A stretch of DNA of 64,000 bases. It comes from Vulcanimicrobiota bacterium. GTDB taxonomy: Bacteria > Vulcanimicrobiota > Vulcanimicrobiia > Vulcanimicrobiales > Vulcanimicrobiaceae. The notes under the pieces were generated by a model, which was not told the DNA's origin, made no database searches, and saw only the letters and a program-made list of their open reading frames with translations. Shown piece after piece: positions 1,879 through 39,221 of the stretch (the first letter of the stretch is position 1; every line of letters starts with the position of its first letter). Where the stretch lies: assembly GCA_003151115.1 (NCBI GenBank), contig PLWS01000003.1:125350-189349 (forward strand), in the 5' to 3' direction. A program made the position numbers and the translations under genes.

Positions 1879-3320
1879 CAGCCAAAAAGACGCCCATTAC
1901 CGTAGCGTACGGCGACGGTATCGGTCCTGAAATCATGGATGCAACGCTGCGCATGATTACCGAAGCCGGCGCTCAGCTCGACATGGAGCGGATCGAGATC
2001 GGCGAGAGCATCTACTCTCGCGGGATCACCAACGGCATCGAGGACAGCTCCTGGGATTCGCTGCGCCGCACCAAGGTATTCTTGAAGGCGCCGATTACCA
2101 CGCCGCAAGGCGGCGGTTTCAAATCGCTCAACGTGACCGTGAGAAAGACGCTCGGCATGTACGCAAACGTGCGGCCGTGCGCGTCGCTTTACCCGTACGT
2201 TTCGACCAAGCATCCGAAGATGAACCTCGTGATCGCCCGTGAGAACGAGGAAGACGTCTATGGCGGCATCGAGCACCGGCAAACGCAGCAGGTCACGCAA
2301 TGCCTGAAGCTAATCTCGCGCCCCGGCAGCGAGCGCATCGTGCGCTACGCGTTCGAATATGCGCGCGCGAACAAGCGCAAGAAAGTCACCTGCTTCACCA
2401 AAGACAACATCATGAAGCTCACCGACGGGCTCTTCCACAAAATCTTTGACGAGATCGCCAAAGAGTATCCCGACATCGAGAACGAGCACTGGATCGTTGA
2501 CATCGGCGCCGCCAAGATGGCCGACACGCCGGAAGTTTTTGATGTGCTCGTGATGCCGAATCTTTACGGCGACGTGCTCTCCGACGTTGCTGCCCAAATC
2601 ACGGGCTCCGTCGGTCTGGCGGGCTCGGCGAACATCGGCGACCACTGTTCGATGTTCGAAGCGATTCACGGATCCGCACCGCGGCGTGCCGGACAAAACC
2701 TTGCCAACCCCTCCGGCCTCTTCCATGGTGCCTTGCTCATGCTCTCGCATATCGGGCAAGGCGAAATCGCGGAGCGGGCGCACAACGCGTGGCTGCGGAC
2801 GATCGAAGACGGCATTCACACCTACGACATTTATAAAGAAGGCGTCAGCAAAGAAAAGGTCGGCACAAAAGAGTTCGCGTCGGCCGTTATCGAGCGGCTC
2901 GGGGAGTTGCCGGAGCATCTCGCGCCGGTCGCGTACGCCAAAGACGCACAGATGAATGTTACCGTTCGCGCCGCTGGACCGGCTGCCGAAAAGAGACACG
3001 TCGGCGTCGACGTCTTCATCGACCTTCCTAACGTCGATCCGGATGCCATCGCCGAGCGCATCAATGCGCTGCCGCTCGAAGGCGCCGCGCTCACCGTGAT
3101 CAGCAACCGCGGCACGAAAGTCTGGCCGAAAGGCAACCCAGATACGTTTTGGAGCGATCACTGGTGCTGCCGGCTGGAATCGAAGAACGGCGACTTTTCG
3201 GGAAAGAGCGTTGTGCAAATCCTGGCCGCGTTTTGTACGGGCGGCTTCGACGTCGTGAAAACCGAGGGCCTGTACACGTTTGACGGCGCGCGAGGGTACT
3301 CGCTCGCGCAAGGCGAGTAG
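1853..3320 (+). CDS. icd: NADP-dependent isocitrate dehydrogenase, Thermus-type with C-terminal extension
   Basis: ITVAYGDGIGPEIMDATL, VIARENEEDVYGGIEHRQT, MPNLYGDVLSDVAAQITGSVGLAGSANIG, C-terminal ISNRGTKVWP; start could also be GTG 1866. Confidence 0.9.
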
Positions 3321-36279: not shown

Positions 36280-36414
36280 AACATAGAGGAAGGCCCCGGC
36301 GGGGGCCCTCCAAACTCGACCCATTGTAGACCCGCCCCAGGGCCTTGTCAAACGCGTTGGTCGGCGGGGTATGATATACTTGACAAACTGACCCCTTTCT
36401 GCCATACTTGTGGC

Positions 36415-37362
36415 ATGGCGAAGCAACCGATTCCCAAGACTATGATCGCGGCGGTCAAGCAGTTTGCGGACCCGCAGGTCGCCCATGACTTTTTCGTCCA
36501 AATGCGCTGGCCGCACGGCGTGGCTTGCCCGCGCATGGGTTGCGGATCGGCGGACGTTACCTATCTTGCCACGTACCGCCGTTGGAACTGCAAGGAGTGC
36601 AAGCGGCAGTTCACGGCTAAGGTCGGAACGATCTTTGAAGATTCTCCGATTGGCCTCGACAAGTGGCTCCCCGCGTTTTGGCTGATCGCCAGCAACCGTA
36701 ACGGAATCTCGTCGCACGAACTTGGACGGGCGCTTGAGATCACGCAAAAGACGGCGTGGTTTATGCTGCACCGTATCCGTGAAGCGATGAAGAACGAGAA
36801 CCTTGACCCGCTGACCGGGACCATCGAGGTTGACGAAGCCTACATTGGCGGTAAGTGGGAGAACAAGCCGAAGGCCGTCCGTCGTGCGGCGGGATGGTAC
36901 GGTAAGGCAGAACACTACAAGTCCAAAACGACGGTCTTCGGAATGGTCCAGCGCGGCGGTCGAGTTCGCGCCTGGAAAGTTCCTGATGCGACGAAGAAAA
37001 CGCTCCTGCCGAAGCTGCGCGATAGCATCCACTATGACGCTACGGTGTACTCCGATTCGGCCACGGCATATACCCATATAGACGAGTATTTCTTGCAACA
37101 TTCGACCGTGAATCATTCGATGGAAGAGTACGTTCGCGGGAACGTACATACGAATAATATCGAGTGCTTCTGGGCCGTGCTGAAGCGCACCATCGGCGGA
37201 ACGTACACGCACGTTAATCCTCGTCACCTTGACCGCTATCTTGCGGAACAAGTCTTTCGCTTTGACGAGCGAGAGAATACCGATGGACCGCGCTTTGCCA
37301 AAGCGACAAAGCAGGCAGACGGGAAGCGTCTTACTTACAAAGCATTGATCGCTAAGTCATAG
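36415..37362 (+). CDS. IS1595-family transposase
   Basis: N-terminal zinc ribbon (CPRMGCG...WNCKECKRQFTAKVGTIFEDS), EVDEAYIGGKWENK, VYSDSATAY, RGNVHTNNIECFWAVLKRTIGGTYTHVNPRHLDRYLAEQVFRF. Confidence 0.95.
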   Translation: MAKQPIPKTMIAAVKQFADPQVAHDFFVQMRWPHGVACPRMGCGSADVTYLATYRRWNCKECKRQFTAKVGTIFEDSPIGLDKWLPAFWLIASNRNGISSHELGRALEITQKTAWFMLHRIREAMKNENLDPLTGTIEVDEAYIGGKWENKPKAVRRAAGWYGKAEHYKSKTTVFGMVQRGGRVRAWKVPDATKKTLLPKLRDSIHYDATVYSDSATAYTHIDEYFLQHSTVNHSMEEYVRGNVHTNNIECFWAVLKRTIGGTYTHVNPRHLDRYLAEQVFRFDERENTDGPRFAKATKQADGKRLTYKALIAKS

Positions 37363-37973
37363 TGCCCCGTCCCTGGAAGAGCAATAACAAGAATAGCATT
37401 AGCGGCGGCTCCAGGGCGATTCTAAATAGCCCTGTTTGCGCGGCGCTTTTAGGGGCGGTTGTTGCGGAATGGTCAGGAGCCGAATCGCAGCTTGGGATTA
37501 TTTACTCTGAACTGATCGTAGGAACGACAATGGCTGGAGTTCCGATTGCTGCTGGTGCCTGGTCCGCGATGGAAACCTTTGATATGATTTCAAACTTTGA
37601 TCAGAAGCGGAAGATGCTCGTCAAGGCAGCCGAACGCAGAGGCTTAGAGGCTAGCATTGTTGAGGATTTAGACAAACTCCTAAAGGCGCTTCAAAAGGCC
37701 GGTAAGTCCAGAATCGCAGCTGCTCATGGGCGATGGGGAGTAGATCAAACCGCCTACCCGGAGAGTTTGATATGGACGCCCACGGCTGGCGGCGTCGGAG
37801 AAGCGATGGTATATGACGCCTCGGACTTCGAAGCAGACATAAATCGAATCGCCCAAAGGTCCGGAGAGCTAATGGCGTTTTGGCGGGTGACACTCCATCC
37901 AAAGCTCGAAGTCGCGACGAAGTGGTATATCAAGCACCTGCGATCCATGAAGGATTTCGAGGACCCCGCCTAA
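37362..37973 (+). CDS. IS passenger protein; HEPN-like (Rx4H motif)
   Basis: GTG start overlaps transposase stop (TAGTG); helical protein with KSRIAAAHGRW. Confidence 0.6.
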   Translation: MPRPWKSNNKNSISGGSRAILNSPVCAALLGAVVAEWSGAESQLGIIYSELIVGTTMAGVPIAAGAWSAMETFDMISNFDQKRKMLVKAAERRGLEASIVEDLDKLLKALQKAGKSRIAAAHGRWGVDQTAYPESLIWTPTAGGVGEAMVYDASDFEADINRIAQRSGELMAFWRVTLHPKLEVATKWYIKHLRSMKDFEDPA

Positions 37974-38041
37974 CGCTTCTTCGCACTCACCACGACCCCG
38001 CTCATATCGAGGATCGTCGGTAAAGTAAAACCGCAGAAACT

Positions 38042-38218
38042 CTATCGCTTTTTCGTGGGGCGCTTGCGCTTCGCTGTCTTGCTCTTCGTTCGCTTGGCCT
38101 TCGGCGGTTTGGGCTTGATGTGCGCGACCGCCGACTTTGGGACGCGCGCGATCTTGCCGACCAGCTTTCCGAACTCGGCCAGCGGAATCAGAGGCTCTAG
38201 CGGCTTCTTGGCGGACAT
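38042..38218 (-). CDS. Small highly basic IS passenger protein
   Basis: MSAKKPLEPLIPLAEFGKLVGKIARVPKSAVAHIKPKPPKAKRTKSKTAKRKRPTKKR. Confidence 0.45.
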   Translation of the reverse strand: MSAKKPLEPLIPLAEFGKLVGKIARVPKSAVAHIKPKPPKAKRTKSKTAKRKRPTKKR

Positions 38219-38254
38219 TATCCGTATTGTAACACGCTTCGCCGGGAGGCTCTG

Positions 38255-38458
38255 ATGGACGGGATTGATCCTGAGAAACTGCGTCAAATGGGGGAACAGG
38301 CGCTTCGAAATCTTCTAGATACTCAGCGCGCCTACATACAAGAGCTGCTAGATAACGACGACGCGTTCGCTCCTGAGCAGCTTGCGAAAACGCGCGAGCA
38401 GCTTCGAATCTCGATTGCAGCCCTACACGAGCTTGGGGTTGAAGCGATTCGAAAATAG
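38255..38458 (+). CDS. Small helical IS passenger protein
   Basis: SD GGGAGG just upstream; MDGIDPEKLRQMGEQALRNLLDTQRAYIQELLDNDDAFAPEQLAKTREQLRISIAALHELGVEAIRK. Confidence 0.5.
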   Translation: MDGIDPEKLRQMGEQALRNLLDTQRAYIQELLDNDDAFAPEQLAKTREQLRISIAALHELGVEAIRK

Positions 38459-38567
38459 CCTCGTATTCGTCGGCCATGATCGCCGCGTGAAGCGCCTGCT
38501 CCCATCGCCGGGCTGATCCATAGTTTGCCATCTATATCAGACCCGGTCGGCGGTATAGACCTGCGTA

Positions 38568-39221
38568 ATGATCGAATCATCCAACCCCGCCGTCCGCGAC
38601 CTGGCCCGCCACGGCGTGGCCTACGCCCCTGAGATCGTCCGGGCGGCCGGCAAGCACGGGGTCAATGCCCAACTGCTGGCGGCCGTCGCCGCTCAAGAGA
38701 CCGGCGGCCCCGGCTCAAATGCCGGGAGCAATATCGTGGGTGACGGCGGACACGGGCACGGCCTCTTCCAGATAGACGATCGCTGGCACGCTTTCGCGCG
38801 CAACCCTGCCGCCATGGATCCACAGGCGAACGCCGACTACGCAGCCGGGATGATCTCCGGACTGCTCCGGCGCTACGGCGGCAACGTTCACAAGGCGCTT
38901 TCCGCATATAATGCCGGCGATCCGAATGCGACCGGGACGATCACGCCGTGGCAAGACGGCCGGAAGCTCGGATATGCGGACTCCGTCATGCGACACTATG
39001 CCCAGCTCGGCGGAGCGCCCCAAGATTTTACCGCCGAAAGCGCCACCGAGCAGCAAAACGTGAACCAGCTCGCGACGTTTGCATCGCTGATGCCGCCGCC
39101 CGCGCCGCAGGCCGCAAACGCGCACTCATTCCGGCAGCTCGCCGGCAGCGACAACGCTCATCCGGAATCGATCGTCGACGACAGCGATGACGATTCATCT
39201 CAAAGTGAAGGTGTAACATGA
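38568..39221 (+). CDS. Lytic transglycosylase (SLT-domain) protein
   Basis: LLAAVAAQETGGPGSN...GHGLFQIDDRWHAF...ANADYAAGMISGLLRRYGGNVHKALSAYNAGDP. Confidence 0.85.
   Translation: MIESSNPAVRDLARHGVAYAPEIVRAAGKHGVNAQLLAAVAAQETGGPGSNAGSNIVGDGGHGHGLFQIDDRWHAFARNPAAMDPQANADYAAGMISGLLRRYGGNVHKALSAYNAGDPNATGTITPWQDGRKLGYADSVMRHYAQLGGAPQDFTAESATEQQNVNQLATFASLMPPPAPQAANAHSFRQLAGSDNAHPESIVDDSDDDSSQSEGVT

Follow-up and report, generated by a model that had tools for sequence, protein, structure and literature searches.

A complete IS1595-family transposon of a cassette-swapping lineage in Eremiobacterota, with cargo most likely of toxin or defence type

IS1595 elements that carry passenger genes have already been described under the name "transporter IS" (PMC3129680, citing Siguier, Gagnevin and Chandler 2009). 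As far as that source outlines them, they combine an IS1595 transposase, terminal inverted repeats, and 8-bp duplications with genes unrelated to transposition, as does the element analyzed here. ISApl4, an IS1016-type member of the IS1595 family, also has a same-family DDE transposase and 8-bp duplications, but it is only 712 bp long, contains the transposase only, and resistance genes are carried only between flanking pairs of it (PMC12561309). Tn7-like transposons, which carry variable cargo including defence systems, are similar in role only (PMC8649781); they use several transposition genes, whereas elements of the present lineage have a single transposase accompanied, as a rule, by one or two genes of cargo.

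We analyzed the window, a stretch of 64 kb from a 2.56-Mb, 8-contig genome, which contains an intact IS1595-family element of 2178 bp (positions 36367–38544). Our preferred reading, to which we assign a probability of roughly 0.85, is that this is a complete "transporter IS" of a cassette-swapping lineage, with probable coupling between transposase and cargo and a cargo most likely of toxin or defence type. A passenger gene lies between the ends, and the empty sites described below indicate that the whole unit arrived together, both of which are expected of a "transporter IS". Compared with the elements outlined in PMC3129680, the present lineage is distinguished by a small basic ORF conserved near the right end and by a single exchangeable slot with sharp boundaries. 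Passenger-carrying IS1595 elements being known, the present analysis adds a lineage of them, together with its basic ORF and the swapping of its cassettes.

Ends, expression and insertion site of the element

From position 36367 the left end reads GGGTATGATATACTTGACAAACT, and the right end, finishing at 38544, reads GGGTCTGATATAGATGGCAAACT as reverse complement. These terminal inverted repeats are identical at 19 of 23 positions and are directly bordered by a perfect 8-bp direct repeat, GGTCGGCG (coordinates of all features in Table 1). Within the 2.5-kb region, the combination of a 16/20 inverted match with an adjacent 8/8 direct repeat occurred at one position pair only, and it occurred at no pair in 12 dinucleotide shuffles of that region. 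The transposase ORF is intact (948 bp) and matches NCBIfam transpos_IS1595 and Pfam DDE_Tnp_IS1595; its acidic residues, assigned by motif, are D140, D214, and E250. The element thus has the DDE domain plus zinc ribbon, the border inverted repeats, and the 8-bp target duplication of the IS1595 family. A preliminary description had proposed an IS1595-type element with exact ends and a perfect 8-bp duplication, a transposase occupying less than half of it, at least one forward cargo gene coupled to the transposase, and 2 small ORFs besides. All of this was borne out: the 3 profile matches are above curated cut-offs, the end motif recurs in relatives, the duplication is also supported by the empty sites, the transposase takes up 44% of the element, the GTG start of the cargo gene shares one base with the transposase stop (TAGTG, 37360–37364), and both small ORFs are present.

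A promoter candidate, TTGACA-17-CATACT, is located at 36380–36408, with its TTGACA inside the left inverted repeat. In the alignment of 12 elements the left ends approximate GGTTATTATATACTTGAC, and a second hexamer and the ATG come next; because TTGAC is conserved in the left repeat in this arrangement, it is the likely -35. The short distance from the -10 to the ATG suggests that the transposase message is leaderless. The transposase expressed from this left-end promoter would act on both ends; the ends, the duplication, and the empty sites show that the whole 2178 bp was inserted with duplication of the 8-bp target. The element is probably still mobile, although its single copy in the genome counts against this. 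The cargo gene is probably co-transcribed and translationally coupled with the transposase, given the stop/start overlap in the window and the spacing of -3 to +11 bases in relatives.

Table 1. Coordinates of the element's features in the window, related elements of the phylum, and cargo types
Feature	Location	Strand	Evidence or remark
Target duplication, left copy, GGTCGGCG	36359..36366	.	sequence; single copy in empty sites of G005, G002, G006
Left terminal inverted repeat	36367..36389	+	contains TTGACA; left-end alignment (12 elements)
IS1595 transposase, 315 aa, zinc ribbon + DDE domain	36415..37362	+	NF033547 2.5e-58, PF12762 2.5e-39, PF12760 2.7e-10
Cargo gene, 203 aa	37362..37973	+	GTG start; no family match
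-1 frame continuation after basic ORF	37869..38044	-	similar only to G037 element; score 63 vs shuffles
Small basic ORF, 58 aa, MSAKKPLEPLIPL...	38042..38218	-	alignment; phylum search; position beside transposases
Small ORF, 67 aa	38255..38458	+	similar-sized ORFs at matching place in relatives
Right terminal inverted repeat	38522..38544	-	sequence
Target duplication, right copy, GGTCGGCG	38545..38552	.	sequence
Related element, 2274 bp	G011		8/8 duplication
Related element, 2355 bp	G070		8/8 duplication
Related element, 1915 bp	G037		8/8 duplication
Related element, 2264 bp	G110		8/8 duplication
Related element, 2114 bp	G024		8/8 duplication
Related element, 2029 bp	G035		8/8 duplication
Related element, 1944 bp	G120		8/8 duplication
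Related element, 1994 bp	G020		8/8 duplication
Related element, 2632 bp	G128		8/8 duplication
Related element, 3850 bp	G006		8/8 duplication
Related element, 2480 bp	G036		8/8 duplication
Related element, 3148 bp	G064		7/8 duplication
Cargo, HEPN-like	window, G037		
Cargo, HNH_5-like	G011, G120		below Pfam cut-off
Cargo, RelA/SpoT	G047		PADLOC PDC-S33 6e-109; right end unmapped
Cargo, DUF3800	G036		PADLOC PDC-M04A 1.8e-6; right end unmapped
Cargo, SocA/Panacea antitoxin + 131-aa neighbour	G128		SocA_Panacea 1.2e-19
DNA methylase with Mrr-type domain	beside G049 transposase		ends unmapped
Cargo, HNLRSALDH-type, seven elements	L037, L040, L041, L042, L087, L090, L093		grouped by eye

The preliminary description had also pointed to sister genomes as the place to look for empty sites. 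We located the right flank in all 6 congeneric genomes searched, and in every one of them the left flank is joined to it without the element. The empty sites of 3 of these genomes (G005, G002, and G006) read GCGTTGGTCGGCGGTATAGACC, with a single GGTCGGCG, and those of 3 more distant congeners carry a slightly diverged GGTCGGCG. The empty sites indicate that the whole 2178 bp came in as one insertion, and the joined flanks with a single GGTCGGCG support the element boundaries to the base. The proposal that the insertion is fairly recent is likewise supported by the absence of the element from the 6 congeners, by the intact duplication, by its copy number (one copy each of the element and its transposase in the host genome), and by its G+C content of 0.551, below that of every other window of the same size tested (lowest 0.558, median 0.607).

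On the right, the element is flanked by a lytic transglycosylase gene with an SLT domain, which starts at 38568; the left flank lies upstream of a small minus-strand gene that we take to be yceD/DUF177-like. In all 6 sister species the joined site carries the string TTGTCA-17-TATAGA, with a few bases between it and the start of the transglycosylase gene, which places the insertion within the spacer of the likely promoter of this gene. In the window the string is split (36345–36366 with 38553–38568), and the insertion may have led to lost expression of the lytic transglycosylase gene. A divergent promoter-like site on the minus strand (36351–36323) is left unbroken. An IS1595 element of the same lineage also lies just upstream of an apparently orthologous transglycosylase gene in a different genus, in opposite orientation (L040 of G036, about 2301–2310). 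The site upstream of this gene is perhaps a favoured target of the lineage.

The 203-aa cargo protein

Searches with the cargo protein against Pfam, NCBIfam, PADLOC, PDB sequences, plasmids, and viral contigs returned nothing beyond chance. A contig search with the cargo alignment gave 4 loci, of which a single one, located in a Rhodobacteraceae genome, was new, and a homologous cargo gene occupies the equivalent place behind the IS1595 transposase of the G037 element. The alignment of the window's protein with 4 relatives (23–39% identity to it) has 11 invariant columns, among them R117 and H122, which form an Rx4H motif, and W125. The residue after the arginine is N in 3 of the 5 sequences (RN-x3-H), I in the window, and V in L056; a polar residue at this position is typical, though not strict, for HEPN proteins. 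The predicted structure is helical (pLDDT 83.5, pTM 0.75) and places R117 near the end of a helix (97–121) and H122 right after it, followed by a β-hairpin and a long helix. The HEPN feature Rx4-6H at a helix end is present, the residues being invariant in the alignment and the helix being seen in the model. HEPN RNases (PMC3710099) share with this protein the Rx4H motif where a helix passes into a loop, the helical core and, as in Csx1, the β-hairpin right after the motif; the cargo protein differs from the HEPN families in having neither a profile nor a fold match and, in the window, an isoleucine instead of a polar residue after the arginine.

Our best guess, held at slightly less than even odds, is that the window's cargo is a HEPN-class RNase. 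We give even odds to its being another kind of helical protein, for instance with a binding or signalling function, in which the conserved R and H are structural. This second possibility draws on the absence of any HEPN member among the Pfam profiles or PDB fold matches (Foldseek) of the cargo, because of which we do not file it as a HEPN member, on the Foldseek comparison with viral models, which gave no usable match (the best was an unnamed protein, E 0.035), and on the I or V after the arginine in 2 of the 5 sequences. Against it, R, H, and W are among so few invariant columns, most of the sequences read RN-x3-H, and the motif sits at a helix end and in the next loop, as described for HEPN proteins. 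At the broader level, the window's cargo is most likely a toxin- or defence-type protein. Several other members of the lineage carry cargo with toxin or defence links, namely the RelA/SpoT (PDC-S33), DUF3800 (PDC-M04A), and SocA/Panacea types, which supports this view. One cargo relative is found in G072, a genome of the host's family, where it (L033, 1429–2001) follows a ThsB TIR gene (635–1129; PADLOC 1.3e-64, Pfam 4.3e-25) at a distance of about 300 bp, with no IS1595 transposase near it; the two genes are possibly a defence locus.

A lineage with one exchangeable cargo slot

The transposase relatives of the phylum were taken with their flanks and scanned for inverted ends with adjacent direct repeats, which delimited 12 further elements, 11 with 8/8 duplications and one with 7/8. 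The score used in this search favours duplications, and thus the weakest calls are less certain than the others, namely L093, with ends matching at 13/20, and the pair L047 and L048, which do not begin with G; for the right ends of L037, L039, L040, L044, L049, and L090 the search gave no convincing duplication. In each of the 9 mapped elements scored, base 48 or 49 is the first of the transposase gene. Spacing to the next gene was scored in 12 elements; in 11 of them its start lies within -3 to +11 bases of the transposase stop, the exception being +57. The order common to the lineage is a left end with the likely promoter, the transposase, the cargo gene, a small basic ORF on the opposite strand, and the right end. 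The basic ORF has the consensus KxxLEPLIPLxxLKKVVxxIxxVPK with a lysine/arginine-rich tail and lies close to the right end. A search of 149 genomes of the phylum found it in 22, and an IS1595 transposase is encoded nearby on the opposite strand for nearly all of the strong matches.

Three supported sister pairs of transposases carry unrelated cargo. In the closest pair, L091 (G120) and L090 (G118), the first 965 bp are 89% identical at the DNA level; identity ends near the transposase end, is absent over the cargo, and returns at 85% in the basic ORF and at 92% in the final 62 bp. Comparisons of the window with L036 and with L087 show breaks of identity like these. Near-identical flanks around unrelated cargo show that the cargo was swapped as a cassette; by this comparison the transposase, the ends, and the basic ORF are retained while the gene between them is replaced, most likely through recombination between the conserved flanks. 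The commonest cargo, of the HNLRSALDH type, comprises proteins of 252–312 aa in which the motif itself is an Rx4H string in several cases; the 4 that were scanned against Pfam had no match. Because this type is without known function, the term "defence-type" fits part of the set only. The slot is delimited by the transposase stop on one side and the end of the basic ORF on the other, and this sharp definition means that uncharacterized genes inside it can be collected automatically as candidates for toxin or defence functions. The lineage provides small, clearly delimited transposons whose ends are mapped and for which natural empty sites exist, in a phylum that is known chiefly through metagenomes, and cassette exchange can be studied directly between nearly identical elements.

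A bolder form of the preferred reading, which we consider tentative and rather unlikely as a whole, is that these elements are minimal-transposon shuttles in which the fixed transposase and an undescribed basic protein flank a single exchangeable toxin/defence slot, with swapping that uses the flanks as arms of homology or is assisted by the basic protein, and in which the window's cargo represents a new HEPN-type family. It is improbable that both the cargo and the basic ORF encode accessory proteins that aid or control transposition instead of being passengers: the basic ORF is conserved together with the transposase and encodes a product rich in lysine and arginine, as expected for a DNA-binding protein, and cargo replacement leaves room for a helper role of this ORF, but the presence of unrelated cargo in elements with near-identical transposases means that the cargo cannot be a fixed helper. 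Least probable is a plain IS1595 element with chance-captured host DNA that has no lasting link to it, since the absence of close cargo relatives from congeners and plasmids and the relative outside any IS1595 element in G072 are outweighed by the homologous cargo of G037 in the equivalent place and by the single, equally spaced cargo slot of nearly all mapped relatives.

Other small ORFs and similar layouts outside the phylum

Past the stop of the window's basic ORF, the reading continues in the -1 frame, partly antisense to the 3' end of the cargo gene. This stretch (37869–38044, minus strand) aligned to positions 2229–2408 (plus strand) of L038, the locus of the G037 element, with a score of 63; the 99th percentile of shuffles was 41 and the next best frame pair scored 33, the shuffle test covering the window/L038 pair only. 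Conservation of this frame is limited to these two elements, both with HEPN-like cargo. It may be a frameshift extension or an overlapping ORF, and could be expressed by a -1 frameshift at GAAAAAG or by re-initiation at CTG/TTG. Long -1-frame ORFs after the basic ORF of other elements resemble antisense shadows of cargo genes and were left uncounted. Beyond the basic ORF, relatives often contain an ORF of 60–72 aa; similarity among these ORFs is too low for homology to be claimed.

The basic ORF had no match at 3 plasmid loci outside the phylum. One of them, on a Roseomonas marmotae plasmid (L103, 3504–5983), has a similar layout, in which an IS1595 transposase and the next gene share 4 bases and a PIN-domain gene comes after them. 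On the Entomospira culicis plasmid p28 (L106, 2989–5991), an IS1595 transposase is followed, 285 bp on, by a gene for a 601-aa AAA ATPase.
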